Positions 3,954 through 46,482 of a stretch of DNA of 49,034 nt are shown here, one piece after another. The notes beneath the pieces are model-generated. The model saw only the letters and a program-made list of their open reading frames with translations, ran no database searches and was not told the origin of the DNA. Within the stretch, counting starts at the first letter, position 1. Each line of letters begins with the position of its first letter. The position numbers and the translations under genes are program-made. The stretch is from a virus: positions 1 to 49,034 of the IMG/VR virus record IMGVR_UViG_3300034066_000841, one strand, 5' to 3'.

Positions 3954-4135
3954 CGGTGAGCTTGGATGAAACGGAACATTCGGTCGATTGCGTCTTGGTC
4001 GGCTTCGCTCAACTCATCCAGGATCTGGATGGTGGCGGCCATGTGCTCTAACGCTTGCAGCGCCTCGATCACAGTCGGCGGCTCAAGGAACTGCAGAGCG
4101 TCAGGCAGCACAGGAGGGGGGCGGGTGTAGTCCAT
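3950..4135 (-). CDS. Hypothetical small protein
   Basis: A 61-residue product from the ATG at 4135. A proline-rich N-terminus (DYTRPPPVLPDALQFLEPP) is followed by an acidic helical region (VIEALQALEHMAATIQILDELSEADQDAI). The start overlaps the 23-codon gene upstream (TGATG) and the stop overlaps the RecT-like start (ATGA). Function unknown. Confidence 0.6.
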   Translation of the reverse strand: MDYTRPPPVLPDALQFLEPPTVIEALQALEHMAATIQILDELSEADQDAIDRMFRFIQAHR

Positions 4136-4206
4136 CACTTCCTCACAGCTAAGTAGGCGATCCCCAGCGCAATCGACCACACCAGCAGCAGGCCGACTTC
4201 AGTCAT
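4135..4206 (-). CDS. 23-residue single-pass membrane peptide
   Basis: This minus-strand frame from the ATG at 4206 encodes a 23-residue peptide: MTEVGLL, a hydrophobic core LLVWSIALGIAYLAV, and a basic RK end. The start overlaps the stop of the RecE-like gene (4199-4201) and the stop overlaps the next ATG (4135), exactly the packing of the genuine genes around it. One membrane helix with a positive C-terminus. Function unknown. Confidence 0.5.
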   Translation of the reverse strand: MTEVGLLLVWSIALGIAYLAVRK

Positions 4207-4996
4207 CGCACCACCGCGGCAGGTCTAGGGGTTGGATCGTGTCGGCGTAGCCCGGCCACTTGCCGCTCGCTTTGCACTCAGCAATCAGCGCCAGGTTTTG
4301 ATCAGCCGCGCGGCCACCGGCGGCCACCATCTCAGGCGTCGCCACATAGACCGCCACCAGGTACGGCGGGGACTTCTCAACTGCCACGAACAGGAACTGC
4401 TCAGCGCCGGTCCCGCGGAGATACCAGTGGCTCTGCACGTGGTAGCGGAACTTGGCCACTGACTGCGCAAAGGTCCGCGCGTCAGCGTGCTCGGTGGTTT
4501 TCACATCAACCACCAGGCGGCCGTCAGCACTGCGCCAGTCCGGGCGGCACTTGCAGTCCTGCTCGGTGGCGTCATCACGCCAGCGCACAGTCTGCTCAAC
4601 CTGGCCCGGCAGCTCCAGCAGGAACCGGCTGGCCGGGTGCTTGTGCACAGCGTCGGCCATGCGCCGCACTGCATCCACGTCGTCCTGCTTGAGCAGGATC
4701 TTGCCCTCAGCCTTGGCTTCCCACTCAGCCCACGCCTTGGTGCCGCGGCGGATCTGCGGTGCCACCACGTACTGCTCATCGAATAGGTGCGGCTCAAGGA
4801 TTGCGGTGTGAGTCGCTGAGCCCAACACCATCGCTGGCGTTGGCTCCTGCTGCACGCGGTTCGGGTCCAGGAATTTCGCCCAGTAGTGCGCCGGGCTCTT
4901 GGCCACCTCATCGAGATGGCTTTTGCCGATCACCATCGTCAGCGCGTGGTACTCGGCGTTGCTCAGGACTTCTTTCCCAGCAACCTCATCTCCCAT
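4199..4996 (-). CDS. RecE/exonuclease VIII-like PD-(D/E)XK nuclease
   Basis: About 265 residues from the ATG at 4996; an in-frame GTG at 5044 and ATGs at 5035 and 5029 are alternatives. I prefer 4996 because the NAEYHAL region then sits near the N-terminus, as in the family. Motifs: KSHLDEVAKSPAHYWAKF, LGSATHTAILEP (helical motif with H), then DCKCRPDWRS and LVVDVKTTEHA, which provide the D...D-x-K nuclease core, and FRYHVQSHWY. It resects dsDNA ends 5'-3' to feed the RecT-like protein. Confidence 0.87.
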   Translation of the reverse strand: MGDEVAGKEVLSNAEYHALTMVIGKSHLDEVAKSPAHYWAKFLDPNRVQQEPTPAMVLGSATHTAILEPHLFDEQYVVAPQIRRGTKAWAEWEAKAEGKILLKQDDVDAVRRMADAVHKHPASRFLLELPGQVEQTVRWRDDATEQDCKCRPDWRSADGRLVVDVKTTEHADARTFAQSVAKFRYHVQSHWYLRGTGAEQFLFVAVEKSPPYLVAVYVATPEMVAAGGRAADQNLALIAECKASGKWPGYADTIQPLDLPRWCDD

Positions 4997-5044
4997 ACTC
5001 AGGCATCCTTCGGGGCACTGGCCGACCATAGACATTCCCTGCAC

Positions 5045-5141
5045 GTCCCGCCCCGTCCTGTTGCATAACTTCGCAACCTATTGATTCTGCACACCTTTTG
5101 CCCTTAAGTAACCACTCAGTCAAGGCGTAACTCTTTCACCC
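5045..5141. promoter_or_regulatory. Divergent promoter region between recombination and replication operons
   Basis: This AT-richer gap separates the minus-strand RecE-like gene from the plus-strand helicase. On the plus strand TTGATT, a 17-base spacer and TTAAGT form a plausible sigma-70 pair. No GCGA hairpin is present. Assignment rests on position and weak hexamer similarity. Confidence 0.4.
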
Positions 5142-6545
5142 ATGCGAGTAACCCTCAGGCCCTACCAGGAGGCCGGAGTGACACAACTGCGCTACGAGTA
5201 TTGGCAAGGCAGGAAATCAGTCCTGTACTGCCTGCCCACTGGCGGAGGCAAAACAGTGGTCTTCAGCCACATCGCCGAAAGCGCCGCGCGCAAGGGCAAC
5301 CGCATCTGCATCCTGGTGCACCGCCAGGAGCTGGTCTCCCAGTCATCCGACAGCCTGACGAACATCGGCGTGGCGCACGGCGTCATCGCTGCTGGCACCC
5401 CCATGGACCTCAGCCACAGCGTTCAGGTCGCCAGCGTCCAGACCCTGGTGCGGCGCCTGCACAAGATCCCGCCCAACTTCTTTCAACTGCTGGTGGTCGA
5501 CGAAGCTCACCACGCGGTCGCCGGCAGCTGGGCCACCGTCATCCAGCACTACGCCGACGCCAAAGTGCTGGGCGTCACCGCAACGCCCGAACGTCTCGAC
5601 GGCCGCGGCCTGGGCGACATCTTTGACGCCCTGGTGCTGGGCCCCGACGCGCGCTGGCTCACCGACAGCGGCTTCCTGGCGCCCGCCCGCATCTTTGCCC
5701 CGCCGGCTGAGCTCGACTTCAGCGTCATGCGCCGCCAGATGGGCGACTACCGCATGGATGACGCCGAAGAACAGGTGATTCGCGCCAAGTTCATCGGTGA
5801 CGTGGTGGCCCACTACCGCCGCCATCTCGAGCCCGGCACTGCGATCGCTTTCTGCTGCTCAGTCCGTCATGCCCAGGCCATGGCTGATACCTTTCAAAGC
5901 GCCGGCATCCGCGCCGCTTCCCTTGACGGCAAGACCCACAAGGATGAGCGCAAGGCCATGATCGCCAAGCTCGGCACCGGCGAAATCCAGGTGCTGTGCT
6001 CCTGCCAGATCATCAGCGAAGGCACTGACGTGCCCACAGTCGGCGGCGCCATCCTGGTGCGCCCCACCGACAGCCTCAGCCTCTACCTCCAGCAGGTGGG
6101 CCGGTGCCTGCGCCCAGCGCCCGGCAAGGAGCACGCCATCATCCTCGATCACGTTGGCAACGTGCAGCGATTCGGCCTGCCAACTGACTCGCGCGACTGG
6201 TCACTCGAAGGCCGCAAGCGCAAAACCCGCCAGGGTGACGACGCCGCACCGGTCAAGGTGTGCCCGGCGTGCTTCAGCGTTGTGTCATCCACCGTCACCA
6301 TCTGCGACGCCTGCGGTCATGCGTTCGAGCGCAAGGCGCGCACCGACGTGACCCGTGACGACATCAACCTGATCGAAATCACTGACATCGCCCGCGGCGA
6401 CTACAACTTCTCAGATCGCCGCCGCCTCGTTTCACAGGCCCGCACATTGCAGGAGCTTGAAGAGCTGGCTCAGGAGTTCGGCTACAAGCGCGGCTGGGCC
6501 TACAAGATCTACACATCACGCCAAGTCCGCAGGTATGGCACCTAG
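5142..6545 (+). CDS. SF2 DEAH-box helicase with C-terminal zinc ribbon
   Basis: A 467-residue product. RecA-like domain 1 has LRPYQEAGV (Q-motif region), Walker A TGGGKT near residue 33, DEAHH (motif II) and TATPERLDGRG (motif III region). Domain 2 has ISEGTDVPTVGGAILVRPT (motif V) and QQVGRCLRPAPGK (motif VI). Near residue 375, CPAC...CDACG forms a zinc ribbon. This is the SSL2/RadD-like helicase type common in phages. It opens the plus-strand replication operon and overlaps the VRR-NUC gene by 11 bases. Confidence 0.92.
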   Translation: MRVTLRPYQEAGVTQLRYEYWQGRKSVLYCLPTGGGKTVVFSHIAESAARKGNRICILVHRQELVSQSSDSLTNIGVAHGVIAAGTPMDLSHSVQVASVQTLVRRLHKIPPNFFQLLVVDEAHHAVAGSWATVIQHYADAKVLGVTATPERLDGRGLGDIFDALVLGPDARWLTDSGFLAPARIFAPPAELDFSVMRRQMGDYRMDDAEEQVIRAKFIGDVVAHYRRHLEPGTAIAFCCSVRHAQAMADTFQSAGIRAASLDGKTHKDERKAMIAKLGTGEIQVLCSCQIISEGTDVPTVGGAILVRPTDSLSLYLQQVGRCLRPAPGKEHAIILDHVGNVQRFGLPTDSRDWSLEGRKRKTRQGDDAAPVKVCPACFSVVSSTVTICDACGHAFERKARTDVTRDDINLIEITDIARGDYNFSDRRRLVSQARTLQELEELAQEFGYKRGWAYKIYTSRQVRRYGT

Positions 6546-6885
6546 CCATGAGCTCGCTGTTCAGAACAGCATCCGCCTCGCGCTCGGTCGCGGCAACGTG
6601 CGCCTGTTCCGCAACAACACCGGCGCGCTCAAGGATGCCCAAGGCCGCCTCGTCACCTTCGGCCTCTGCCCTGGCAGCTCAGACCTCATCGGCTGGCGCA
6701 CGATCACCATCACCCCCGACATGGTGGGCCGGCAGCTCGCCGTCTTCACCGCCATCGAGGTCAAGGACAAAGGCCGCGCCACAGCGCAACAGCAGCAGTT
6801 CATCAGCGTCGTGCAGCAGGCCGGCGGCATCGCTGGTGTCGCCCGCTCGATCGAAGACGCCACGGCTATCCTGGACGCCGTGTAA
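6535..6885 (+). CDS. VRR-NUC domain nuclease
   Basis: A 116-residue product from the ATG at 6535, overlapping the helicase stop. It has the standalone VRR-NUC layout: RLFRNNTG, PGSSDLIGW (catalytic D), FTAIEVKDKGRATAQQQQF (E-x-K and Q motif), then VQQAGGIAGVARS. These PD-(D/E)XK-related Holliday-junction or flap nucleases often accompany a phage helicase and primase, as here. Confidence 0.9.
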   Translation: MAPSHELAVQNSIRLALGRGNVRLFRNNTGALKDAQGRLVTFGLCPGSSDLIGWRTITITPDMVGRQLAVFTAIEVKDKGRATAQQQQFISVVQQAGGIAGVARSIEDATAILDAV

Positions 6886-6955
6886 CAGATCATTAACTTC
6901 CCGTTGTGACGCGGAACCGCGCCACATACGCTCGGCCCGCACCTCAACGCCAGCG
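6886..6955 (+). promoter_or_regulatory. Short non-coding leader before 6956
   Basis: It contains TTGTGACGCG, also present in the distal part of early promoter block B, and CATACGCT 15 bases later. A weak promoter on the plus strand is possible. No terminator seen. Confidence 0.3.
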
Positions 6956-7195
6956 ATGGCCCCCCTTTCCCCAGACCAGTGCCTCAAGCGCCTCAGGCAG
7001 CTCTACCGCGATGCCATGAAGTGCACCCCAGACTCAGATCAGGCCGCAATCGATTGGGCCTATCAGGTTGAAACCTGGGCTACCCAGCAGATCGCTCACC
7101 GCGGTTGGAGCTTTCAGGCCGCCGAGGCCGTGGTCCGCAGCACACGCATCATCCGCAAGCGTGCCACCATCGCAGCGCAGGAGGCCGCGCTGTGA
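6956..7195 (+). CDS. Hypothetical small protein in replication operon
   Basis: A 79-residue product from the ATG at 6956. It is helical and basic overall (CLKRLRQLYRDAMKC, WAYQVETWATQQIAHRGWSF, VVRSTRIIRKRATIAAQ). No domain recognised. The stop overlaps the GTG start of the next gene (GTGA). Confidence 0.6.
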   Translation: MAPLSPDQCLKRLRQLYRDAMKCTPDSDQAAIDWAYQVETWATQQIAHRGWSFQAAEAVVRSTRIIRKRATIAAQEAAL

Positions 7196-7389
7196 CCGTT
7201 GCCGAGTTCCGTGAGTCCATTGGCTTTGCTGCTGGCGTCTCCTATGAGCGCCGCCGCATTTATGAGCTGATCAAGGGCCGCGTCGCCACTCTCAACGCCT
7301 GGGCCGGCCAAGGCATCCCCAAGGCCACCATCGAACGCCTCACCTCAGAGCTGCACCTGCTGCTCACCGCGCTCGACGAGGCGCCCTGA
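7192..7389 (+). CDS. Hypothetical small protein in replication operon
   Basis: A 65-residue product; GTG start at 7192 chosen because it overlaps the upstream stop. The sequence (FRESIGFAAGVSYERRRIYELI, then ATIERLTSELHLLLTAL) reads as two or three helices. It lies 3 bases before the primase gene. Unknown function. Confidence 0.6.
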   Translation: MTVAEFRESIGFAAGVSYERRRIYELIKGRVATLNAWAGQGIPKATIERLTSELHLLLTALDEAP

Positions 7390-7392
7390 CTC

Positions 7393-9489
7393 ATGGTGCT
7401 GCTCGATCAACTCCAGGCCCTGCCTGATGAATGGGGCCTGGTCGCCGTGGGCGACAACAAACGCCCTTACCAGCACGAGTGGCAGAAGCATCCCCTCACC
7501 AAGGCTGAGGTCGCCGCCGAGATCAACGCCGGCCGCGCCAAGGCCGTTGGCGTCATCGCTGGCCCCGCCTCTGGTGGCTTGCTGTTCGTTGACCATGACG
7601 GCGTTAGCGCCTCAGAAGTCCTGGACCGCATAGGGGCACCCCTCCGCACTCTGCCCAAATCATGGGCAATGACCTCAGGCCGTAACGGCCGCTTTCAGGT
7701 CATCTACCGCGTACCTGAGCGCTATTGGGATCACCTCCACACCAAGCGCATCAAATCCGGCAAGCAGGATGAAGAGGGCAACAACGAGCAGCTGGAGCTC
7801 CGCTGGACTGGCTGCCAGTCCGTGGTCATCGGCGCACACCCCAGCACACAGGGCTACCGCTGGCTCAAAGGCCGCGCTCCCCACGAGCTGCCCATCGCTG
7901 AAGCGCCCACCGCGCTGATTGAGCAGATGCTGCGCCTTCGCCCGCAGCAGGATGCCGCACCGCTTCTGGCGCCGCCCACCGGCGGCCTCTCAGATAGTGA
8001 GCGCGCCCGCCAATACCTCGCCGCACTCAGCAGCGCACGCGCTGACGACTACGACACCTGGCTGCAGGTGGGCATGGCCCTTCACAGCGTCGGTGACGAC
8101 TCACTGCTCGCTGACTGGGAGGCGTTCTCACGCGCATCAGCCAAGAACAAGCCCCAGGACTGCGAACAGAAGTGGCGGTCGTTTTCTGCCGGCACTTCAG
8201 GCATCACCCTTGGCACCCTGGGCCAGCTGGCCAAGCAAGACGGCTGGCAGCCGCCCAGCAAGTCCAAATCAAAGCCCGCACCAGCACCCCCGTCAGCACC
8301 GCGCGCCTCCACGCTCCACGGCACCGTTGAGCCGGCCGACAACGAAACCGCAAGCATCAAACCCCAAAAGCTGGAGGCCATTGAGCTGCTCCAAAGGCTC
8401 CGGGCCAGCAGTGAGTCTATTCGTTACAACGTCTTCACCCAGCAGATCGAAATCAAGGGCGAAGTCATGCAGGGCGCTGAGCGCTTCTACCTGCAGCTCG
8501 CTGAGATGGGCTACAAGGTCTCAAAAGAGCTGGCCATGGACTGCCTGGTGCAGGTGGCCAATGAGCACCCATACGACCCCGTGCGCCTTTACCTCGAGCA
8601 CGTGGCCGAAACCGTTCAGCCCGCCTACATCGACGCGCTGGCAACCACCTACCTCAGGCCAGGTGACGCCCCCGGCAGCCTCTACGACGAGATGCTCAAG
8701 CGCACCCTCATCGCTGCGGTCAAACGCATCTTTGAGCCTGGCTGCAAACACGACACTGCCTGCGTCCTCATGGGTGACCAGGGCGCGCGCAAATCCACCT
8801 TCTGGAACGTGCTCGGCGGCACGTGGTTCTCAGATGCCCTGCGGGACATCACCTCAAAGGATGACCTGATGGTGCTGCACCGCTCCTGGCTCATGGAGTG
8901 GGCTGAGCTGGATCACATCACCTCCAAGAAACACGCCGGCCAGGTCAAAGCCTTCCTCAGCCAGGCGACCGACCTGTTCCGCGTGCCCTACGGCAAGGCC
9001 ACAGAAGCCTTCCCCAGGCGCTGCGTCATCGTTGGGTCAACCAACCGCAGCACCGGCTTCCTGGTGGATGAGACCGGCAACCGCCGCTTCTGGGTCATCC
9101 CCACCACCAAGACCATTGATGACCCCATCGACATCCCCGGCCTGCTGCTGGAACGTGACGCCATCTGGGCCGCGGCCGTACAGGCCTACAGGGCCGGCGA
9201 AACCAGCTTCCTCAACAGTGCCCGAGAGCAAGAGGTAGCCAACGAAAACCAGGACTACTTGGTGACCAACCCCTGGCAGCCCGCCATCGAAGGCTGGCTG
9301 GCCCGGCAGTTCCCCGGTGACCCCATCACCACCGAAGCGATCCTCACTGACGCAGTGGCCAAGCCCATCGAACGGCAGACCAAGCATGACCAGATGCAGG
9401 TGGCCGACATCCTCAAGCGCCTGGGCTACGACCGCCGCAGGGCCATGGTCACCGGGCAGAGGCAGTGGCGGTGGTTCAAGGTGGCGTGA
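7393..9489 (+). CDS. Primase-polymerase / VirE-type SF3-like helicase fusion
   Basis: A 698-residue replication protein. Residues about 1-185 form a primase-polymerase domain (LLFVDHDGV for the catalytic acids, AMTSGRNGRFQVIYR, and QSVVIGAHPSTQGY). Residues about 200-280 are PriCT-2-like (ARQYLAALS...DDYDTWLQVGMALHS). The C-terminal half is a VirE/VapE-type P-loop domain with Walker A GDQGARKST near residue 462, WLMEWAELDHI, and the arginine-rich FPRRCVIVGSTNRSTGFL. It primes and unwinds at the origin. A strong terminator follows 43 bases after the stop. Confidence 0.93.
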   Translation: MVLLDQLQALPDEWGLVAVGDNKRPYQHEWQKHPLTKAEVAAEINAGRAKAVGVIAGPASGGLLFVDHDGVSASEVLDRIGAPLRTLPKSWAMTSGRNGRFQVIYRVPERYWDHLHTKRIKSGKQDEEGNNEQLELRWTGCQSVVIGAHPSTQGYRWLKGRAPHELPIAEAPTALIEQMLRLRPQQDAAPLLAPPTGGLSDSERARQYLAALSSARADDYDTWLQVGMALHSVGDDSLLADWEAFSRASAKNKPQDCEQKWRSFSAGTSGITLGTLGQLAKQDGWQPPSKSKSKPAPAPPSAPRASTLHGTVEPADNETASIKPQKLEAIELLQRLRASSESIRYNVFTQQIEIKGEVMQGAERFYLQLAEMGYKVSKELAMDCLVQVANEHPYDPVRLYLEHVAETVQPAYIDALATTYLRPGDAPGSLYDEMLKRTLIAAVKRIFEPGCKHDTACVLMGDQGARKSTFWNVLGGTWFSDALRDITSKDDLMVLHRSWLMEWAELDHITSKKHAGQVKAFLSQATDLFRVPYGKATEAFPRRCVIVGSTNRSTGFLVDETGNRRFWVIPTTKTIDDPIDIPGLLLERDAIWAAAVQAYRAGETSFLNSAREQEVANENQDYLVTNPWQPAIEGWLARQFPGDPITTEAILTDAVAKPIERQTKHDQMQVADILKRLGYDRRRAMVTGQRQWRWFKVA

Positions 9490-9505
9490 CCTGATTGCCC
9501 TACCT

Positions 9506-9525
9506 GTGCCCCTTAGGTGGGGCAC
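9506..9525 (+). repeat. Stem-loop GTGCCCC-TTAGGT-GGGGCAC
   Basis: A perfect 7-bp stem just past the primase stop and before the terminator. Its loop-side sequence shares the CCTTAGG theme of the region. Confidence 0.5.
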
Positions 9526-9531
9526 CCTGAG

Positions 9532-9556
9532 AACCCTGTCAGTGACAGGGTTTTTT
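9532..9556 (+). terminator. Rho-independent terminator of the replication operon
   Basis: AACCCTGTC / GACAGGGTT form a 9-bp stem with a 3-base AGT loop, followed by six T residues. It ends transcription of the helicase-to-primase operon and isolates it from the late genes. Confidence 0.9.
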
Positions 9557-9557
9557 C

Positions 9558-9683
9558 ATGGATTGCCCTACCTGCCCTACTGCCCTACCTTTTGCCCAAA
9601 CTACCCCCAGGTCTATGCCCTTACCCCCTATTTCTACTTTTACCCTTCTAGGTAGGGTAGGTAGGGTAAGTAGGGCAATCCAT
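9558..9683. repeat. Large inverted repeat with octamer arms
   Basis: The left arm begins ATGGATTGCCCTAC and the right arm ends with its exact complement. The 14-bp outer match is perfect and the inner 20 bp are degenerate repeats of CCCTACC. The spacer is about 60 bases, C/T-rich on the plus strand. Confidence 0.7.
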
Positions 9684-9794
9684 TGCAGCGCAAGGCTTCT
9701 GAAGGGTGCCCTACCTGCCCCACCTCCCCCTGAGGTAGGGCAATGAGGTAGGGCAGCGCTCCCGCCTAGCCTGGGCCTATCGGAGGGCCATCCC

Positions 9795-10352
9795 ATGGCA
9801 CGCATCGACATCACCGCCACCGTCCTGGGCGACAAGGAGCTGGTGGCTGCCCTGCAGCGCATGAGAAGCCACGACGTGGACAAGGCCGTGCGTGATGGCG
9901 TGCGCTATGCCGCACGTGGTGGCCGCACCGCCATCGCCAAGAACATCGGCGCGCACTACAGCCTCGCTGCAGGCCGCATCAAACAGGACGTGACACAGCC
10001 CAGCTTCCAGGAGGGGGGCAAGGTGGCCGTGATCCGCACCATGCGGAAGCCCATCACCGCCATGCAGTTCAAGGCGCGCGAGACGCGCAAGGGCCTGAGC
10101 ATGAGCATCTACCGCGGGCAGCGCACCGTGGTGAAGTCAGGCTTCATCGCTAAGGGCAAGCCCTTCAAGCGCACAGGCAAGGAGCGCTATCCCCTGGACG
10201 TGATCCATGGCCCGTCCATCCATGCCATCTACACCGGGGGCAGGCACGCCGAGGCGATCAGCAGCGCCACTGAGCAACGCATCCAGGAGCAGCTGGAGAA
10301 GGGCATCCTGCGAAGCCTCCAGAGCATGAGCAGGGGCTTCGGCCGCAGCTGA
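9795..10352 (+). CDS. Minor tail protein gpZ-like
   Basis: A 185-residue product. The N-terminal LVAALQRMRSHDVDKAVRDGVRYAARGGRTAIAK, the central basic region (MSIYRGQRT..., KPFKRTGKERYPL) and the C-terminal helix recall the lambda gpZ/prophage minor tail protein Z family, which acts at the head-tail or tail-terminator interface. In most phages it sits between the head-completion and tail genes; here it lies about 11 kb upstream, alone, before the ParB cassette. Start ATG with GGAGG upstream. Confidence 0.72.
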   Translation: MARIDITATVLGDKELVAALQRMRSHDVDKAVRDGVRYAARGGRTAIAKNIGAHYSLAAGRIKQDVTQPSFQEGGKVAVIRTMRKPITAMQFKARETRKGLSMSIYRGQRTVVKSGFIAKGKPFKRTGKERYPLDVIHGPSIHAIYTGGRHAEAISSATEQRIQEQLEKGILRSLQSMSRGFGRS

Positions 10353-10642
10353 CCCCCGCCCCCTCCGGGTCCTTCCTGGCCTGCGACAGTGCGGGGCCGC
10401 GCACCGCCGTTTTTTCGTAGCGTCTGAAATCAAAGCGGGTTGCCGGGGCGGCCGAGACCCCAGGCCCTGACTGGGGTTCTCAACAGGCCTCGTCTATTGC
10501 AAAAGCCTGCTGTCGCAACGTGAGTCTCGCCAGGCCGTTTTCTGATCAGAAGTTATGCGGCGGGACGAGCGTGCAGAGTTGCGTCGGTTGCGCAACCATG
10601 GCCCAATGCCGCAGCTAATCTCTGACCACCCCACCGCAACGC
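10353..10642 (+). promoter_or_regulatory. Non-coding control region before the ParB cassette
   Basis: This 290-base gap holds a weak terminator-like hairpin (GTGCG...CGCAC at 10389-10404, then CGCCG and six T at 10410-10415), a GAGACCCCAG...CTGGGGTTCTC hairpin with one bulge near 10454-10481, and two perfect 12-bp palindromes: TTCTGATCAGAA (10540-10551) and GGTTGCGCAACC (10586-10597). No convincing -35/-10 pair was seen. The palindromes look like operators for a dimeric regulator. Confidence 0.5.
10389..10415 (+). terminator. Possible terminator after gpZ-like gene
   Basis: A 5-bp GC stem with a 6-base loop and a T6 run 5 bases later. The spacing between stem and T-run is longer than ideal, so this is tentative. 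Confidence 0.45.
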
Positions 10643-11272
10643 ATGGCAGCCAAACTCAAGCCGGCGATGGCCAACCGCATAGAGGTGTGGCCCATCGAAA
10701 AGCTGGTGCCTTACGAGCGCAACGCCCGCACCCACAGCGCAGCGCAGGTGGCGCAGCTGGCGGCGAGCATCACTGAGTTTGGTTTCGTCAACCCGATCCT
10801 GGTGGACACCGGCGCTGGCGTAATCGCCGGGCATGGGCGGCTGGCCGCGGCCAAGGACCTGGGCCTCAAGGAAGTGCCGGTGGTGGTGCTCGATCACCTG
10901 AGCCCTGAGCAGCGCAAGGCGTATGTCATCGCCGACAACAAGCTGGCGCTGAACGCCGGCTGGGACATGAGCCTGCTGCAGGAGGAAGTGATCGGCCTGC
11001 AGCTGGCAGACTTTGACCTGAGCCTGCTGGGCTTCGACGAGTCAGAGCTGGAGGGCCTGCTGGGCGACGACGACCTGGAAGATGGCGTGGACGCCCGTGA
11101 CGCGGTGGACGAGCACGATGACGCCAACACGCAGGTGGTGATCGGCAGCTACCGATTCCCGCTGGACCGCGACGCCTACTTCCAGTGGCGGGACGCCATC
11201 CGTGAGGAAGTGGGCTTCGAGGAAGACGACATCAAAGCCGAGATTCGCCGCCGCCTGCAGATCCCCGAATGA
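10643..11272 (+). CDS. ParB-like N-terminal domain protein
   Basis: A 209-residue product. Residues about 15-110 form a ParB/sulfiredoxin-fold domain: EKLVPYERNARTHS, VAQLAASITEFGFVNPILVD, then the signature G-V-I-A-G-H-G-R-L-A-A-A. The C-terminal half is very acidic (GLLGDDDLEDGVDARD). There is no ParA partner, and the chromosome-partition HTH and C-terminal dimer domain are absent. In phages such domains usually precede or are fused to DNA methyltransferases. First gene of a chain of overlapping genes leading to terminase. Confidence 0.85.
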   Translation: MAAKLKPAMANRIEVWPIEKLVPYERNARTHSAAQVAQLAASITEFGFVNPILVDTGAGVIAGHGRLAAAKDLGLKEVPVVVLDHLSPEQRKAYVIADNKLALNAGWDMSLLQEEVIGLQLADFDLSLLGFDESELEGLLGDDDLEDGVDARDAVDEHDDANTQVVIGSYRFPLDRDAYFQWRDAIREEVGFEEDDIKAEIRRRLQIPE

Positions 11273-12792
11273 CGATCAAGCTGGTGCCACTGGGTGAGCT
11301 GAACCCGTCGGCCTACAACCCGCGCACGGCTGACCCGAAGCGGCTGGACCTGATTGAGCTGAGCCTGCGCAAGCTGGGTTTCGTGCTGCCGGTGTTCGCC
11401 GACGCCACGGGCGAGATCCTCAGCGGTCACCAGCGCCACCTGGTAGCGACCCGCATGGGCCTGTCGGCGATGCCGGTGATGTTCACGAAGCCGCTGGACC
11501 TGGCGAAACGCAAGAGCATCAACATCGCGTTCAACCGCGGCACCAACGACATGGCGGCGGTCGACACACCGGCCAGCATGACGGAAGCGCTGCAGCGCGC
11601 GGACATTCAGGGGCTGGCTGCGAAGCTGCCGGACCGCGAGGGCGATGACCTGTTCCCGTGCATGGCGGCGACGCCGGTGCGGGTGAAGGAGCTCACGAAG
11701 GTCAACAACGGCCGGTGGGTGCAGTACGCGAAGAACACGGCCCGGGTGCTGGCCGGTCACGGCGTGACAATGCCGATCGTTTGCACCAGGGACAACGTGG
11801 TGGTGAACGGCATCGGCCGGCTGGAGTACGCGGCCGAAAAGGGCATCGAGACAGTGCAAGTGGTCTACATCACTGAGGCGGAGCGGGACTTCACCTACGC
11901 GATGCTCAACTACCTCACGATGGATTTCAACATCCACGAGAGATACGAGGACCTGCTGCGATACAACAGCTTCCGCCGCAGCCGCGGAGCTCGCAGCTAC
12001 CTGGGCCGGTGCTTCACCTTCCCGCTGCTGGGGCACAAGAGCAGCAAGACGTTTGACGTGAACCAGCCCGAGAGCCGGGCGCTGTGGATCAAGACGTTCG
12101 GGCGGACCGTGCTGGACTTTGGCGCGGGCACGTTGAGCGAGACGCGCATCCTGCAGGGCGTGGGTGTGGATTGTGTGCCGTTCGAGCCGTTCAGGCTGGA
12201 CGGGGAGACGATTGACCGGGCGAAGAGCGTGGCGACCACCCGTGAGTTTTTCGCACGTGTCGCAGACGGGACTCAGTTCGACGCAATTTTTTTGAGCGCG
12301 ATCATGAACTCGGTGCCCTTCTACCAGGACCGGGTGCACATCCTGCGGATCATCGCGGCGCTATGCGGTCCCCGCACCCGGGTCTACGCGGTGAGCGCCA
12401 GCACTGACCAGACCGGCTATGAGCTGACGGCGGGCCGGCAGTATCTGAACAAGGGCGACGCCAGCCGGTTGCAGTTCAGGTTGGACTACGAGCCACGGGT
12501 GACGATCGCCGACTTCAGCGAAACGCCCAAGGTGCAGAAGTATCACACGCCGGAAGAATGGTACGAGCTGTGGAAACAACAGTTCGAGAAGGTCAAAGTA
12601 ACTGAAAGCGCAAACAATGTTGAATGCATCTGCGGGAAACCGATCAAACCAAGCGATGAAGATCTAAGTGCTGCACTTTGTTTCGAGTTCGACTTGCCGT
12701 ATCCTGACGGCCATAGAATGGACCTGGCTAAAGAGGCACTTGCCGCTTTCGGCCAGCGATTGAAGCGCGAGCTTCCTTACCCCAAGCGATGA
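11269..12792 (+). CDS. ParB-like / class I methyltransferase fusion protein
   Basis: A 507-residue product. Residues 1-75 are ParB-like (GELNPSAYNPRT..., ILSGHQRHLVATRMGL). Residues about 125-200 look like a second, diverged ParB-like module (TMPIVCTRDNVVVNGIGRLEYAAEKGI). Residues about 275-400 form a Rossmann SAM-binding domain (TVLDFGAGTLSETRIL as motif I, FDAIFLSAIMNSVPF further on). The last 75 residues (CICGKPIKPSDEDL...) are lower in GC and of unknown fold. A DNA or nucleotide methyltransferase guided by ParB-like modules is my inference; no DPPY-type motif is visible. It overlaps both neighbours as ATGA. Confidence 0.75.
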   Translation: MTIKLVPLGELNPSAYNPRTADPKRLDLIELSLRKLGFVLPVFADATGEILSGHQRHLVATRMGLSAMPVMFTKPLDLAKRKSINIAFNRGTNDMAAVDTPASMTEALQRADIQGLAAKLPDREGDDLFPCMAATPVRVKELTKVNNGRWVQYAKNTARVLAGHGVTMPIVCTRDNVVVNGIGRLEYAAEKGIETVQVVYITEAERDFTYAMLNYLTMDFNIHERYEDLLRYNSFRRSRGARSYLGRCFTFPLLGHKSSKTFDVNQPESRALWIKTFGRTVLDFGAGTLSETRILQGVGVDCVPFEPFRLDGETIDRAKSVATTREFFARVADGTQFDAIFLSAIMNSVPFYQDRVHILRIIAALCGPRTRVYAVSASTDQTGYELTAGRQYLNKGDASRLQFRLDYEPRVTIADFSETPKVQKYHTPEEWYELWKQQFEKVKVTESANNVECICGKPIKPSDEDLSAALCFEFDLPYPDGHRMDLAKEALAAFGQRLKRELPYPKR

Positions 12793-13259
12793 CTGACACA
12801 ATCCTGTTGGACCTCAACAGCACCTACGCCGGCAACGCCAGCGAGGTGCACATCATGAACAAGGGCATCTACTACGTGGCCCGCGAGACCTATCGCAGCT
12901 GGCTGACCGAGCTGCTGCGCGGCCGGCACGTGATCATGATGACGAGCCGGCCCGAGAGTTACCGCATCCAAACGCTGGAGCACATCCGCGAGCTTGAGAA
13001 CTGGCTGCCCGACCTGGCGCTGTTCAATCGGTGGCGCCTGCGAGCGCCGGACGCGAAACTCAAGATGCTGCAAGAGGTGGTGTTCCCGCAGTTCGGCACG
13101 CCGGATCAGCGGAGCTACCTGGCGATCGAAAGCAACTACAAGACCCAGGACATGTTCAAGCGCCAGGGCATCCGCACAACCACGCAGCAGGAAGTCAACG
13201 CCAACGCTGGGCTGCTCGAGGGGCCGCCAGCGATGGTCACGAACCTGAGCCTGTTCTGA
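12789..13259 (+). CDS. Degenerate HAD-like protein
   Basis: A 156-residue product. The N-terminal ILLDLNST resembles HAD motif I (DxDxT) with the second Asp replaced by Asn (D8, N10, T12). MMTSRPESY matches motif II, APDAKLKML supplies a possible motif III lysine, and AIESNYKTQDMF stands where DDxxxD is expected. The fold is thus recognisable while two catalytic acids are changed. It could be an altered nucleotidase, a polynucleotide 3'-phosphatase relative, or a non-catalytic subunit. It overlaps both neighbours. Confidence 0.65.
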   Translation: MTDTILLDLNSTYAGNASEVHIMNKGIYYVARETYRSWLTELLRGRHVIMMTSRPESYRIQTLEHIRELENWLPDLALFNRWRLRAPDAKLKMLQEVVFPQFGTPDQRSYLAIESNYKTQDMFKRQGIRTTTQQEVNANAGLLEGPPAMVTNLSLF

Positions 13260-13912
13260 TGGAGATTCCCAGTAACTGGACCTTTGAGACCGCTGAGGTC
13301 GCTAAGGGCTTCGACCGGCACGTGCGTGAGCAGCTGCCGTGGTACGACCTGGCGACCAACGCGATCACCCACATTGCCCGCCACTACATCAGCGAGGGCG
13401 GGCTGGTGTACGACGTGGGTGCAGCTACTGGGAACATCGCCCGCGCTTTGCAGCCGGTGCTCGACGACCGCGGCGCGCGGATCATCAACATCGAGCCATC
13501 GGCGGCAATGGTTGAGAAGTTTGACGGCCCTGGCGAAGTGATCTGCGCCAGGGCTGAAGACGTGATCTACGAAGGGTTCGACCTGGCGGTGGTCTTCCTG
13601 ACGCTGATGTTCATCGAGCCGCGCCGTCGCGTGCGGGTGATGAACCACTTGCGCCAGTCATGCCGACCAGGTGGAGCCATCATCGTGTTCGACAAGCTGG
13701 AGCCGGCGGGTGGCTACCTAAGCACGGTGTTCTACCGGTTGACGCTCGCGGGCAAGCGCGCTGCGGGTGTGCCGCCGGCGGAGATCATCGAAAAGGAGCT
13801 GAGCCTTTCAGGCGTGCAGCGCCCGATCAACGAGGGGCAGCTGAGCGGTAACGCGCACCTGTGGTTCAAGTTCGGCGACTTCGCCGGCTGGGTGATTGAA
13901 AGGCCGGCGTGA
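13259..13912 (+). CDS. CmoA-like class I SAM methyltransferase
   Basis: A 217-residue product from the ATG at 13259, overlapping the upstream stop (TGATG). VYDVGAATGNIARAL is motif I, NIEPSAAMVEKF the acidic loop, and CRPGGAIIVFDKLEP follows motif post-III. The N-terminal GFDRHVREQLPWYD and the C-terminal LWFKFGDFAGWVIE recall the carboxy-SAM synthase CmoA family from memory. If it really makes carboxy-SAM, a neighbouring transferase could install a carboxymethyl group; that is speculative. A plain methyltransferase is the conservative call. Confidence 0.75.
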   Translation: MEIPSNWTFETAEVAKGFDRHVREQLPWYDLATNAITHIARHYISEGGLVYDVGAATGNIARALQPVLDDRGARIINIEPSAAMVEKFDGPGEVICARAEDVIYEGFDLAVVFLTLMFIEPRRRVRVMNHLRQSCRPGGAIIVFDKLEPAGGYLSTVFYRLTLAGKRAAGVPPAEIIEKELSLSGVQRPINEGQLSGNAHLWFKFGDFAGWVIERPA

Positions 13913-14298
13913 TGCGGCAAGGTCCCCTGCTGCATCTCACCTGGTCGGGGCTTGACGCGGCGGTGGATCTGATCGCGGCGCAGTGCCGTTGGCGTGAGCG
14001 CTCTGGGGTGTGGAGCTCATCCGCCGAGGGGCAAGTGCTGGCGTTGGCGTTGGCCGACCGGCTTTCGCTGACACTGCTGGCGCTGCCGACCCCGGGGATG
14101 CTGCAGGTCGATGCGGTGATCAACAGGCTGCGGCCGACGGGATTGGAAGACGTTGAGCACTGGGCCTGGGTGGACGCGACGCCAGAGTGCACGGTCAACT
14201 CTGCAATGAAGGTGACGCCCGGCACGTTCGTGATGCTGCCTTGGCAGGATGCCCGAGCCTGCTGCAGACGACCGTTCGTCACCGGGTTCGATGATTGA
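13912..14298 (+). CDS. Hypothetical protein in the ParB cassette
   Basis: A 128-residue product from the ATG at 13912 (TGATG overlap). Helical, with LLHLTWSGLDAAVDLIAAQCRW and a central LSLTLLALPTPGMLQVDAVI. No motif recognised. Its stop overlaps the next gene by 8 bases. Confidence 0.55.
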   Translation: MRQGPLLHLTWSGLDAAVDLIAAQCRWRERSGVWSSSAEGQVLALALADRLSLTLLALPTPGMLQVDAVINRLRPTGLEDVEHWAWVDATPECTVNSAMKVTPGTFVMLPWQDARACCRRPFVTGFDD

Positions 14299-14593
14299 AG
14301 TGGCAAGCGTCGGTTACGGCTGCCAGTGGGGGAAGGATGGTCACGTGCGGGCCTGGCCGCTGCGCGTGACGATCGGCGCGAGGGGTGAGGAAACCACGGT
14401 CGACGAAATGCTGGAAGGCCGCGGCTACACGGTCATGCACCGAGGGCAGCTGCTGGAGCTGATCGTGGACATGGCAACGCTGCGCACGCCAATCGAGCTG
14501 TGTTCAGCGGTGAAGCTGTGCGGAGACCCGCCGGTGGAGCTGTTCTGGGATCTGCTGCGGCTCGGCTATGACGTGGCCATCGTGCAGCAGTGA
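14291..14593 (+). CDS. Hypothetical protein upstream of small terminase
   Basis: A 100-residue product from the ATG at 14291. Mixed alpha/beta: IEVASVGYGCQWGKDG, then VRAWPLRVTIG, and a C-terminal helix-rich stretch with cysteines (LCSAVKLCGDPPVEL). No family recognised. Its TGA overlaps the terminase small-subunit ATG. Confidence 0.55.
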   Translation: MIEVASVGYGCQWGKDGHVRAWPLRVTIGARGEETTVDEMLEGRGYTVMHRGQLLELIVDMATLRTPIELCSAVKLCGDPPVELFWDLLRLGYDVAIVQQ

Positions 14594-15135
14594 TGCAAGT
14601 TTCGGTCGCGGAGTATGCGCGGATGGCCGGGGTGAGCCCGCAGGCAATCCGCAAGGCGATCAAGGAAGGCCGGCTGTCGAAGTCGGTCACGCAAGACGGC
14701 CGGGCTTACGTGATCGACCCGGTGTTGGCCGACAAGGAGTACGGCCGCAACACGGCGATGGAGCAACGCCGCACGGCGGAGCAGATCAACGCCGGCAAGG
14801 CCAGGGCAAGGGGCGAGGAAGTCGGCGAGGGCCTGGGCGTCAACTACAGCAAGGCGCGCGCCTACGGCGAGGGCTTCAAGGCAAAGCTGCTGGAGCTGGA
14901 GTACCGGGAGAAAGCGGGGCAGCTGACCCGCACCGACGACGTGAAGAACGCGACCTTCAAGGTGATGAGGCTGTTCCGCGATGCAGTGCAGAACATCCCG
15001 ATCCGGGTGGTGAACGAGCTGGCAGCAGTGATGGGCGACGTGCCTCCGGAGAAGCGGCACGACATGATGCTGATCATGCAGCGCGAGATCAACCGAGCGC
15101 TGGAGCAACTCGCAGATAGCAGTGGCCCTCGCTGA
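14593..15135 (+). CDS. Terminase small subunit
   Basis: A 180-residue product from the ATG at 14593. Residues 1-45 form an HTH (SVAEYARMAGVSPQAIRKAIKEGRL) as in lambda Nu1-type small terminases, followed by a beta turn for the wing. Residues 55-180 are a long helical oligomerisation region (MEQRRTAEQINAGKAR, then AKLLELEYREKAGQL). It recognises the packaging site on phage DNA. It overlaps the large subunit by 14 bases, which supports the assignment. Confidence 0.85.
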   Translation: MQVSVAEYARMAGVSPQAIRKAIKEGRLSKSVTQDGRAYVIDPVLADKEYGRNTAMEQRRTAEQINAGKARARGEEVGEGLGVNYSKARAYGEGFKAKLLELEYREKAGQLTRTDDVKNATFKVMRLFRDAVQNIPIRVVNELAAVMGDVPPEKRHDMMLIMQREINRALEQLADSSGPR

Positions 15136-17005
15136 CGCCTACTCACTGGTCTGGGAAGCGGCATCGGGAGCCATCAGGCCAGACCCGCTGCTGACGGTGA
15201 GCGAGTGGGCTGACAACCATCGGTTCCTGAGCCAGCGGGCGAGCGCAGAGCCCGGGGCGTGGCGAACGGACCGGACCCCCTATCTGCGCGAGGTGATGGA
15301 CTGCCTATCGGCAACGAGCCCGGTCGAAAAGGCGGTGTTCATGAAGGGCGCCCAGGTGGGCGGAACGGAGGCGGGCAACAACTGGCTGGGCTACGTGATC
15401 GACAACTGCCCAGGGCCGATGCTCATGGTGCAGCCGACGGTGGAGATGGCGAAGCGCAACAGCAAGACGCGCATCGCCCCGCTGATCGAGGAAAGCCCCA
15501 GCCTGCGGGAGAAGGTGCGCGACCCCAGGAGCCGGGACAGCGGCAACAGCCTGCTGGCCAAGGAGTTCCCGGGCGGCGTGGTCGTCATGGCCGGAGCCAA
15601 CTCGGCGGCGGGCCTGCGCTCGATGCCGGTGCGGTTCCTGTTCCTGGATGAGCCGGACGCCTACCCCGGCGACGTGGACGGTGAGGGTGACCCGTGCACG
15701 CTGGCTGAGGCGCGCACCCGGACCTTTAGCCGGCGGAAGGTGTTCTACGTGAGCACGCCGACGCTGGCGGGACGCAGCCGGATCGAGCGTGAGTTCCTCG
15801 AAAGCGACATGCGGTTTTTCGAGGTGCCGTGTCCGCTGTGCGGCAGCTACCAGCAGCTGGTCTGGGAGCAGATGAAGTGGGAGGAAGGGCGGCCTGAGAC
15901 AGCGCGTTATCAGTGCGCCCACTGCGATGAGCAGTTCGAGGAGCACCACAAAAACAAGATCTTGCCGCGCGGGCAGTGGGTGCCTCAGAACCCGGAGGGC
16001 AAGTGGCGTGGCTACCACATCAGCTCGCTTTACAGCCCGCTGGGATGGTTCAGCTGGAAGGAGTGCGTGGAGGCGTTCACCCAAGCGCGCAAGACCGACG
16101 AGGCCATGCGCGTGTTTCAGAACACGATCCTGGGCCTTACCTACGCCGACACCGGCGAGGCGCCGGACTGGGAGCTGCTCTACGGCCGACGCGAAAACTA
16201 TCCGATCGGCCAGGTGCCTGACCCGGTTGTGTTCCTGACGGCGGGCGTCGACGTGCAGAAGGACCGCATCGAGCTGGAGGTCGTGGGCTGGGGGCGCAAC
16301 CTGGAGAGCTGGTCGATCGACTACGCGGTGCTGCACGGTGACACGGCCTCAGATGAGGTGTGGGAGCAGCTGAGCGCGGTGGTGCGGCAGGACTACGGGC
16401 GCATGGATGGGATGCGGCTGCCGATCAGGATGGCGGCGGTGGACACCGGCTTCCGCACCCAGGAGGTCTACCGCTGGGTGAAGTCGCAGAGCGCGCTGCG
16501 GGTGATGGCGGTGAAGGGCCGTGAGCAGCAGGCGACGATCATCAGCCAGCCGAGCACGGTTGAGGTGACGATCCGCGGCAAGCGCATCAGGGGCGGCATC
16601 AAGGTGTGGCCGGTGGGTGTGAGCGTGGCCAAGTCAGAGCTCTACGGGTGGCTGCGGCGCAGGTTGCCGTCCAACCTGGAAGAGGGCCTGCCCTACGGGT
16701 GGTGCCACTTCCCGCAGCACACCGAGGAGTATTTCAAGCAGCTGACCGCTGAGTCGCTCGTGAGCCGGATTGTGCGCGGTTACCAGAAGTACCAGTGGGA
16801 GAAGACCCGAGACCGCAACGAGGCGCTGGACTGCCGGGTCTACAACCGGGCCGCGGCGATGGCGATCGGTGCAGACCGGTGGGACGACAAGCGGTGGGAG
16901 TATGAGGCGGGGCAGTCGTTCAACGGCATGGCCACGGTTTCAGCGCAAACGGCGCAGGTTTCGCAGCAAAGCCCGATCAAACGTCGCAAGAGCACGTTCC
17001 TTTGA
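15122..17005 (+). CDS. Terminase large subunit (GpA family)
   Basis: A 627-residue ATPase/nuclease that cuts and packages DNA into the prohead. A Walker A-like KGAQVGGTE sits near residue 76 and Walker B FLFLDEPDAY near residue 173. CPLCG...CAHC near 238-265 is the zinc site seen in the GpA group. The nuclease domain begins near residue 355 (TAGVDVQKDRIELEVVGWG) with further acids around VDTGF. GTG start at 15122. GpA-type terminases usually go with cos-type packaging; I could not locate a cos site. Confidence 0.95.
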   Translation: MALADAYSLVWEAASGAIRPDPLLTVSEWADNHRFLSQRASAEPGAWRTDRTPYLREVMDCLSATSPVEKAVFMKGAQVGGTEAGNNWLGYVIDNCPGPMLMVQPTVEMAKRNSKTRIAPLIEESPSLREKVRDPRSRDSGNSLLAKEFPGGVVVMAGANSAAGLRSMPVRFLFLDEPDAYPGDVDGEGDPCTLAEARTRTFSRRKVFYVSTPTLAGRSRIEREFLESDMRFFEVPCPLCGSYQQLVWEQMKWEEGRPETARYQCAHCDEQFEEHHKNKILPRGQWVPQNPEGKWRGYHISSLYSPLGWFSWKECVEAFTQARKTDEAMRVFQNTILGLTYADTGEAPDWELLYGRRENYPIGQVPDPVVFLTAGVDVQKDRIELEVVGWGRNLESWSIDYAVLHGDTASDEVWEQLSAVVRQDYGRMDGMRLPIRMAAVDTGFRTQEVYRWVKSQSALRVMAVKGREQQATIISQPSTVEVTIRGKRIRGGIKVWPVGVSVAKSELYGWLRRRLPSNLEEGLPYGWCHFPQHTEEYFKQLTAESLVSRIVRGYQKYQWEKTRDRNEALDCRVYNRAAAMAIGADRWDDKRWEYEAGQSFNGMATVSAQTAQVSQQSPIKRRKSTFL

Positions 17006-45175: not shown

Positions 45176-45504
45176 TCGGGCAACGCCTCTAGTGCGCGGC
45201 GGATGGTCTCGGCGGCCTCTTTCTTGAGGTAGCCCCTGTCGAAACTGATGTGCAGCTCATCCAGCGCCTGCTCCTTCAAGCTCGGCGGCTTGGGGCGGCG
45301 CGCGGCGCGCATCTGAGAAGTTGAAAGCCCATGGTCACCGGCGTAGCTCAGGCACGCCTCCAGCTCTTGGTCTGCGCCCCATTGAGCGGCTTTGGCGACG
45401 ATGTAAGACTCAAATTCAGTGTGCTTAACCTTGCTGCGATACCAGTCTTCCCGCCACTGCTCGACCAGCTCCGGCGGCGGGGTGATCGGGTGGTGGTCGC
45501 TCAT
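45172..45504 (-). CDS. Conserved early protein with ITPPPELV motif
   Basis: A 110-residue product from the ATG at 45504 (ATGA overlap). HPITPPPELVEQWREDW, AAQWGADQELEACLSYAG, and a C-terminal helical SLKEQALDELHISFDRGYL. From memory, short proteins with ITPPPELVQQW and AAQWGADQELEAC are common in marine and freshwater Synechococcus and their phages. This is one of the clues to a cyanobacterial host. Function unknown. Confidence 0.68.
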   Translation of the reverse strand: MSDHHPITPPPELVEQWREDWYRSKVKHTEFESYIVAKAAQWGADQELEACLSYAGDHGLSTSQMRAARRPKPPSLKEQALDELHISFDRGYLKKEAAETIRRALEALPE

Positions 45505-46013
45505 CCTCGGCTCGCCGTCACTTGCTGGTCGTTGTTGTAGCGGCCAGTGACGCTGTAATCGCGCAGCGGCCGCTGGCTCATCCGGTGGAACACCATCTGG
45601 CCGATTTTCATCCCGGGCCACAAGGCGACAGGGTGAAGCTGGCGGCTGTTGTGGAGCTCCAGGGTCAGCACCGAGCCGCTCCAGCCTGGGTCGCAGTAGC
45701 CAGCCATCAGGTGCTCGAGGCCGGAGCGCGCGCGGCTCGACTTGAGCATGAACTGCGCGGCGATGTTGTTCGGCAGGTGGAACGTCTCGACGGTCTGGGC
45801 CAGCACGAATTGGCTGGGCACCAGCAAGTAGGGACGCTCTTCGGTGTGGCCTTCGAGGGGATAGGGCACCAAAGCCTCCGACTCAACGCTCTCGATCAGC
45901 AGCGTGCCGCCGAGGCGAACGTCGAGGCTGGCCGGGTTGACGAGCGCGCGCTCAAACGGCGTCACCATGCCGCCATCGCAGAGAGAAGTGATCTCCCAGT
46001 CGGCGAGGATCAC
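45501..46013 (-). CDS. dcd: dCTP deaminase
   Basis: A 170-residue product from the GTG at 46013 (GTGA overlap with the gene upstream), giving the usual family length. VILADWEITSL and PASLDVRLGGTLL at the N-terminus, KSSRARSGLEHLMAG and YCDPGWSGSVLTLELHNS (Ser, Arg and the catalytic Glu), PGMKIGQMVFHRM, YNNDQ. It converts dCTP to dUTP for thymidylate supply; a bifunctional dUTPase form is possible. It is embedded in the early operon. Confidence 0.92.
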   Translation of the reverse strand: MILADWEITSLCDGGMVTPFERALVNPASLDVRLGGTLLIESVESEALVPYPLEGHTEERPYLLVPSQFVLAQTVETFHLPNNIAAQFMLKSSRARSGLEHLMAGYCDPGWSGSVLTLELHNSRQLHPVALWPGMKIGQMVFHRMSQRPLRDYSVTGRYNNDQQVTASRG

Positions 46014-46159
46014 TTGGCCTCCTCCTGCTGCTGGGCCATCAGGCCGGTGTAGAGGTTGTGCATCGGGTGGGTGGGCTCGTGCCGGCCGTCGGCTTCGTAG
46101 AGCGCGTCGAGCTGGTCTTGCCGGGCTTGCTGTTCGATCGGGTTGCAGTTGGGGTCCAT
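46010..46159 (-). CDS. Hypothetical small protein
   Basis: A 49-residue product from the ATG at 46159 (TAATG overlap). Polar and helical: DPNCNPIEQQARQDQLDALYE, HPMHNLYTGLMAQQQEEAK. Unknown function. Confidence 0.55.
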   Translation of the reverse strand: MDPNCNPIEQQARQDQLDALYEADGRHEPTHPMHNLYTGLMAQQQEEAK

Positions 46160-46482
46160 TAGATGATTGTGCGGGTGTTGTGGTTGGGGTCGATTTCGTC
46201 CAGGTGGCACTCCGGGCCGAACCCCGTGGAGAGCAGCTCATCTCGAGCCGGCTCAGTCTTGCGGCTTTTGCGCTCAGCGTCCGCCGCCTCAAGGCTGGCG
46301 ATCCATGAGCGCAGGCTGTCACCGGTCGGTGTCTTTGGCGGCCAGGCCACCCAGCGCAGCATGACCTTTGGGTCGCGGAACATCTGGCTCACGTCTGGCT
46401 TCCAGGCAATAAACCACCGGCCGTTCCAGTCGCGGTCTGTTTCGATCCGCAGGCCACGGGCCACAAAGGCTTCGCGCTTCAT
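46159..46482 (-). CDS. Hypothetical protein
   Basis: A 107-residue product from the ATG at 46482. GLRIETDRDWNGRWFIAWKPD is a beta segment; VMLRWVAWPPKTPTGDSLRSWI and ASLEAADAERKSRKTEPAR are helical and charged; an acidic ECHLDEIDPNHNT end follows. No domain recognised. Confidence 0.6.
   Translation of the reverse strand: MKREAFVARGLRIETDRDWNGRWFIAWKPDVSQMFRDPKVMLRWVAWPPKTPTGDSLRSWIASLEAADAERKSRKTEPARDELLSTGFGPECHLDEIDPNHNTRTII

Follow-up and report, generated by a model that had tools for sequence, protein, structure and literature searches.

The closest described relatives of the locus studied here are phage systems that modify DNA through carboxy-S-adenosylmethionine (carboxy-SAM or Cx-SAM; SAM, S-adenosylmethionine). 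In a December 2025 report, CmoA of Synechococcus phage S-B43 was shown to make Cx-SAM, CmoX is a cytosine-C5 carboxymethyltransferase carrying an SPPC motif, and CmoY is the ligase of this CmoA-CmoX-CmoY system (PMC12783734). The same text states that Arg350 of CmoX touches the Cx-SAM carboxylate, that the R350N variant is inactive, and that the wild-type enzyme accepts Cx-SAM only. It counts ParBc proteins in 1,660 contigs and describes a preliminary search in which no CmoA-associated adenine-N6 or cytosine-N4 carboxymethyltransferase appeared in phages (PMC12783734). In bacteria, CmoA and CmoB act on tRNA, and Arg199 of Escherichia coli CmoA (EcCmoA) alone grips the Cx-SAM carboxylate (PMC4482062). 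Our own literature search, which left preprints and most subscription papers outside, found no further report on Cx-SAM or ParB-linked phage DNA modification. Here, we analyze a window of 49,034 bases, the whole of the single viral record IMGVR_UViG_3300034066_000841, and within it a cassette encoding a ParB-type protein (P0001), a ParB-methyltransferase-fold protein (P0002), a HAD protein (P0003), and a CmoA homologue (P0004) upstream of the terminase genes.

We find that P0002 stands where relatives of this locus carry the C5-transferase, a point missed by the preliminary description of this DNA. We hold it very likely that the cassette supplies carboxy-SAM, and rather probable that P0002 is a Cx-SAM-dependent DNA transferase of a non-C5 type that replaces CmoX. 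The four genes and the modules of P0002 are as follows:

10643..11272, plus strand: P0001, ParB_N-domain partner protein (PF02195, 32.2 bits)
11269..12792, plus strand: P0002, ParB-ParB-class I methyltransferase-fold protein, proposed Cx-SAM-dependent transferase (phrog_5475, AlphaFold2 model, CmoA linkage)
11269..11553, plus strand: first ParB module of P0002, residues 1-95 (structural match to 7bnr; SGHQR)
11671..11871, plus strand: second ParB-like module of P0002, about residues 135-201 (PHROG models; strand/helix order; N180, G181, R184)
11923..12648, plus strand: methyltransferase-fold domain of P0002, residues 219-460 (DFGAG, FEP, NSVPF..DR, PKxQK)
12789..13259, plus strand: P0003, HAD protein nearest the T4 Pnkp 3'-phosphatase domain (DLNxT, ESNxxT; predicted structure)
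13259..13912, plus strand: P0004, CmoA homologue, probable carboxy-SAM synthase (TIGR00740, 4gek, Glu at the EcCmoA Arg199 column)

P0004 is a CmoA homologue and, judged by its sequence relatives, probably a carboxy-SAM synthase. It matches the NCBIfam CmoA model TIGR00740 (1.3e-16, 61.0 bits) below the curated equivalog cut-off of 193.3 bits; the proven CmoA of Synechococcus phage S-B43 (SpCmoA) is also under this cut-off (115.6 bits). The alignment to the E. coli CmoA structure 4gek (2e-15) covers the full domain. Both matches bear out the CmoA kinship that had been proposed for the fourth gene. The active-site comparison suggested along with it came out divided: the homology held, whereas the Arg199 carboxylate contact did not, as its alignment column holds Glu in P0004, in close CmoX-linked relatives, and in SpCmoA. 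Since SpCmoA is an active Cx-SAM synthase, the missing Arg does not refute activity of P0004, and Arg199 was dropped as a deciding residue. CmoA-like matches are rare across phages (83 of 50,697 records). P0004 is 80-81% identical to its CmoX-linked counterparts in two loci (L017 and L016), 66.5-68% to P0002-linked ones (L036 and L010), and 53% to CmoA of Moraxella phage Mcat8.

Searching IMG/VR with P0004, we retrieved 53 loci, the CmoA-found set. A C5-methyltransferase (C5-MTase) was present in 48 of them, P0002 with the HAD gene in three, the HAD gene only in one (the contig begins there), and neither in one; no locus held both. These exclusivity counts, like those below, come from sets retrieved by CmoA or by P0002 and not from a random sample. 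The 48 loci and four phage records supplied 52 linked C5-MTase open reading frames (ORFs). SPPC is found in 50/52, and the motif-X Asn is replaced by Arg in 51/52 (47 by pattern, 4 by eye); in CmoX, this Arg is the one that touches the Cx-SAM carboxylate (PMC12783734). PF00145, the C5-MTase family, was detected in 11/11 CmoX-type records versus 0/14 P0002-type records, three complete phages being among the 14. An unseen CmoX elsewhere in the P0002-type phages was rejected, because PF00145 is absent even from the complete records of Gordonia phage Evaa, Pseudomonas phage SM1, and Aeromonas phage HJ05. The C5-MTases near P0002 in L174, L180, and L093 have the motif-X Asn, not Arg; in L085 the C-terminus was not seen.

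P0002-family queries, applied with no selection for CmoA, gave 156 loci, 80 viral (the best 80 of 220 confirmed relatives) and 76 from genomes; L073 lies on the same contig as L010 and was counted once. A same-strand CmoA accompanied P0002 in 143/156 (80/80 of these best viral loci and 63/76 of the genome loci), fractions that are not an unbiased census since the viral set is weighted to close relatives. The HAD gene was found in 132/156, and 24 of the 27 P0002 groups formed at a 65% identity cut are accompanied by CmoA. Ten of the 13 CmoA-less loci end less than 900 bases downstream, while L152, L156, and L219 have about 7 kb. The Nostoc locus L219 was rejected as a linkage breaker because its contig does hold a CmoA, at a distance of 10.4 kb. 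Judged by contig title, P0002-type viruses and prophages span at least 10 bacterial phyla.

The two transferases also change places beside CmoA. A CmoA tree of 96 proteins, a quick maximum-likelihood tree with long branches, requires at least eight P0002/CmoX partner changes when rows without a transferase label are left out, and its well-supported branches force 6 to 7 changes per label. Loci L035 (CmoX) and L036 (P0002) have CmoA proteins that are 80.5% identical, and the sequenced part of their large terminase subunit (TerL) is 89.7% identical. Moraxella phage Mcat8 (L005) has the order ParB-CmoX-CmoA-small ORF-terminase; Evaa, SM1, and HJ05 have ParB-P0002-CmoA instead of ParB-CmoX-CmoA. 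Taken together, the CmoA linkage, mutual exclusion, and repeated partner exchange are best explained if P0002 is a second carboxy-SAM-dependent transferase.

In Pfam, P0002 gave a weak ParB_N match and a sub-threshold Methyltransf_23 match. In PHROG, it matched phrog_5475 over its full length (1.7e-100), a family annotated as of unknown function, and several PHROG models detected two ParB-like stretches. In the AlphaFold2 model of P0002 (predicted local distance difference test, pLDDT, 92.6; predicted template modeling score, pTM, 0.88), residues 2-95 superimpose on CTPgammaS-bound ParB 7bnr (Z 11.8, root-mean-square deviation (rmsd) 1.8), and a repeated strand/helix order marks the second ParB-like module. 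The family alignment shows SGHQR to be invariant in the first module and N180, G181, and R184 in the second, and the methyltransferase-fold domain retains an intact SAM-type motif, DFGAG. Profiles, motifs, and the predicted structure thus agree with the preliminary description, which had read the second gene as two ParB-like modules plus a SAM-binding domain. The invariance of PKxQK in P0002 relatives is partly by construction, as PKxQK was among the search patterns; for this reason, and because there is only one CmoA-free outgroup family (L004, L228) lacking it, PKxQK is a weak CmoA marker. R231, R237, R355, K421, and K424 are only conserved candidates for a residue that would bind the carboxylate. 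Searching a viral structure library with P0002 returned ParB or single-domain matches only. The class-I fold of P0002 differs from CmoX, which argues against cytosine-C5 chemistry. In Bacteroides phages of the BS-TP3 type (L004, L227, and L229), a remote P0002 homologue lies between a ParB gene and, in the annotated L004, the terminase genes; CmoA was not found there, and this homologue may be a SAM-using relative.

A ParB partner is common to both locus types, and its tail switches along with the transferase. A Zn-ribbon tail occurs in 41/42 ParB ORFs of CmoX-type loci versus 0/147 of P0002-type loci. P0001 has no Zn-ribbon and ends in a tail of the IGxYxF...W...VGF...EIxRRL type, as in P0002-type loci. 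In many of the Clostridia contigs L192-L206 and L222, the order is HAD-ParB-ParB-P0002-CmoA, with two separate ParB genes.

P0003 had no Pfam match, and its predicted structure is a HAD fold (pLDDT 92.7) that aligns best with the T4 Pnkp 3'-phosphatase (Z 15.7, 125 residues, rmsd 2.4; the first other HAD protein, Z 12.1). D-x-D is the usual nucleophile/acid pair of T4 Pnkp-type phosphatases. DLNxT replaces it in 137/138 P0003 relatives, and the ESN segment (ESNxxT) is found in 134/138. P0003 resembles the T4 Pnkp phosphatase among HAD proteins, and its altered active site is strictly conserved, so that the earlier call of a HAD-like third gene with altered acids stands, with D-L-N in place of D-x-D. 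Five loci (L011, L012, L118, L157, and L183) carry a HAD copy on either side of the ParB-P0002 pair, the first upstream of ParB and the second following P0002.

The established part of this analysis comprises the order of the genes, their linkage, the mutual exclusion and repeated exchange of partners, and the folds. In the mechanism that we propose, P0004 would turn SAM and prephenate into carboxy-SAM, as its homology suggests, and P0002 would move the carboxymethyl group onto the phage's own DNA, the role held by CmoX in sister phages. P0001 would help to load or place the transferase on DNA, and P0003, whose fold is that of a nucleic-acid phosphatase with a changed active site, would be an accessory. 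DNA modification as the role of the cassette, as put forward in the preliminary description, is supported at the level of sequence comparison. Its placing of that step shortly before packaging may hold, judged from gene position only. Its suggestion that carboxymethyl modification by carboxy-SAM would be new is outdated, as PMC12783734 reports the cytosine C5 case. More tentatively, P0002 could found a second class of carboxy-SAM DNA transferase, a ParB-clamped class-I enzyme acting on a base N or O and not on cytosine C5; we rate this as possible but short of likely.

Several observations weigh against P0002 being a Cx-SAM-dependent DNA transferase. Its methyltransferase domain is closest in fold to the tRNA methyltransferase METTL6, the best match (Z 13.5), and to small-molecule methyltransferases, not to DNA methyltransferases. 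Its hhalign probability against E. coli CmoB is 20.6%, over 70 columns around motif I only, and a kinship with CmoX was rejected (0.1% against SpCmoX). The loss of Arg199 in P0004 belongs here too. Loci L152 and L156 have full flanks in which CmoA was not found nearby, and the remote Bacteroides-phage homologue of P0002 has neither PKxQK nor a CmoA nearby. An amide ligase is present in 12/15 CmoX-type or other CmoA phage records (a set that includes Erwinia phage L072, not a shown CmoX type) versus 1/31 P0002-type records; its near-absence from the latter suggests that the P0002 product either keeps its carboxylate free or is completed in another way. Finally, 3-deoxy-D-arabino-heptulosonate-7-phosphate (DAHP) synthase, which starts the shikimate path leading to the CmoA co-substrate prephenate, was found in 1/46 records, that of HJ05 only.

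If P0004 makes carboxy-SAM, P0002 might still carboxymethylate tRNA, a protein, or a small molecule instead of DNA. Such a target would suit the structural nearness of P0002 to METTL6 and small-molecule enzymes, and the bacterial CmoA/CmoB pair works on tRNA (PMC4482062). With many small-molecule enzymes within about 2 Z units of METTL6, the acceptor is not readable from the fold. P0002 swaps with a C5-MTase beside the same CmoA, bears two ParB modules, and has a ParB partner common to CmoX loci, all of which speak for DNA, and we consider a non-DNA target unlikely. Another reading takes P0004 and P0002 as ordinary SAM-dependent methyltransferases descended from CmoA-like and class-I enzymes. 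The score of P0004, 61 bits against a cut-off of 193, and the absence of the EcCmoA Arg199 would fit; yet SpCmoA, whose activity is proven, likewise scores under the cut-off and carries Glu at that position. Moreover, the closest relatives of P0004 adjoin the Arg-type CmoX, and the S-B43 CmoX accepted Cx-SAM only (PMC12783734). We give this reading a low probability.

The CmoA homologue might instead counter host defences, by depleting SAM or by producing Cx-SAM, a role that PMC12783734 considers possible for phage CmoA, with P0002 as a DNA-binding accessory. This would leave unexplained why CmoA pairs with one of two transferase classes, never with both in the CmoA-found set, and why P0002 keeps its SAM-type motif intact; we find it highly improbable. 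We thus retain P0002 as the proposed Cx-SAM-dependent DNA transferase of this cassette.

Other genes accompany CmoA in some phages. In HJ05 (L230), the DAHP synthase gene lies at 258-1421 beside the cassette (PF00793, 1.2e-49), and an Asn-synthetase-like protein is encoded near it (PF00733, 25.9 bits). Though a single case, this pairing counts in favour of our explanation. A literature search linking phage DAHP synthase with prephenate found nothing. In Erwinia phage pEa_SNUABM_39 (L072, locus 3971-5652), CmoA is followed by an Asn-synthetase-like ligase; there is no P0002 (only a 23-bit match to the ParB part), and only a distant, interrupted PF00145 match lies about 15 kb off. This phage possibly represents a third transferase type. 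In Alcaligenes phage Afa-NA1 (L007, locus 5953-10497), the genes near CmoA include those of a NUDIX hydrolase and a dTMP kinase and one annotated as a DNA adenine methylase. Neither a PF00145 nor a P0002 match was found in this record, and the annotated methylase is a candidate for using Cx-SAM.

The cassette continues into the terminase genes of the window:

13909..14298, plus strand: P0005, no family found (Pfam, PHROG, and NCBIfam profile searches)
14291..14593, plus strand: P0006, no family found (same searches; ATG 14291 start assumed)
14590..15135, plus strand: P0007, terminase small subunit (phrog_57, 3.7e-30)
15122..17005, plus strand: P0008, terminase large subunit, GpA type (PF05876, 1.1e-96; PF20454, 2.5e-92)

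P0005 and P0006 gave zero matches in the profile searches. With P0006 starting at ATG 14291, the neighbours among the eight ORFs at 10643-17005 overlap by 4, 4, 1, 4, 8, 4, and 14 bases; the longer ORF from 14249 would give a 50-base overlap. The ORF coordinates thereby confirm the eight overlapping genes (1-14 bases) of the preliminary description. Its other claims about the setting are supported as well: the first gene is ParB-fold, its PF02195 score being over the cut-off, and partition is unlikely, as a ParA-type ATPase (PF13614) was not found in the record by a search that was positive in 14/14 control genomes. PF00145 and PF00733 (Asn_synthase, the CmoY-type ligase family) were likewise not found in the whole record. 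Elsewhere, the record encodes a RecT-like protein, exonuclease VIII, a helicase, a primase/VapE protein, a tyrosine integrase, and a contractile tail sheath; it is an ordinary temperate tailed phage or prophage. A dCTP deaminase-like protein is encoded at 45501-46322 on the minus strand (PF22769, 1.2e-28).

If our explanation is true, phages repeatedly swap the transferase around one cofactor supply, and labelling chemistry would gain a new site on DNA that bears a carboxyl handle. The P0002 family offers an enzyme that can be tested and phages that have been isolated, namely Gordonia Evaa, Pseudomonas SM1, and Aeromonas HJ05. Mom of phage Mu gives DNA with a two-carbon carboxyl-derived group, N6-carbamoylmethyladenine, the base that amidation of an N6-carboxymethyl base would give. 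If the acceptor were adenine N6, amidation as in HJ05, with its Asn-synthetase-like gene, would lead to the base that Mu Mom makes, though by a route unrelated to it. Should the second transferase class hold, the HAD partner would finish, proofread, or protect the mark via chemistry not yet described for DLN-type HAD proteins.

Compared with known systems, P0004 shares CmoA homology with bacterial CmoA/CmoB, which make tRNA uridine 5-oxyacetic acid (cmo5U), whereas the window is a phage context; with bacterial CmoB, P0002 shares a short motif-I stretch only. P0003 is of the same HAD type as the T4 Pnkp 3'-phosphatase but has D-L-N instead of D-x-D and, at 156 residues, no kinase domain. A ParB module links P0001 and P0002 to two further sets of phage proteins, the ParB-DNA methyltransferase fusions of phrog_498 and the small ParB proteins of phrog_15396 and phrog_620. 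Unlike these proteins, P0002 has two ParB modules and a methyltransferase domain with NSVPF where a DPPY-type motif IV, a DNA-amino-methyltransferase feature, would stand. The window resembles the S-B43 system in its phage CmoA, whose EcCmoA Arg199 column holds Glu, and in the ParB-domain protein that lies nearby in many contigs of PMC12783734. The gene order of the CmoX-type relative Mcat8, ParB-transferase-CmoA-small ORF-terminase, also resembles it. It differs from S-B43 in having P0002 and P0003 instead of a C5-methyltransferase and a CmoY ligase, and its ParB tail differs from that of CmoX-type loci. As in the carboxy-SAM DNA modification systems, CmoA is genetically coupled with a ParB protein and a single dedicated transferase. 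A system of this kind is known; the transferase class, its ParB tail partner, and the HAD companion are new within the searches made.

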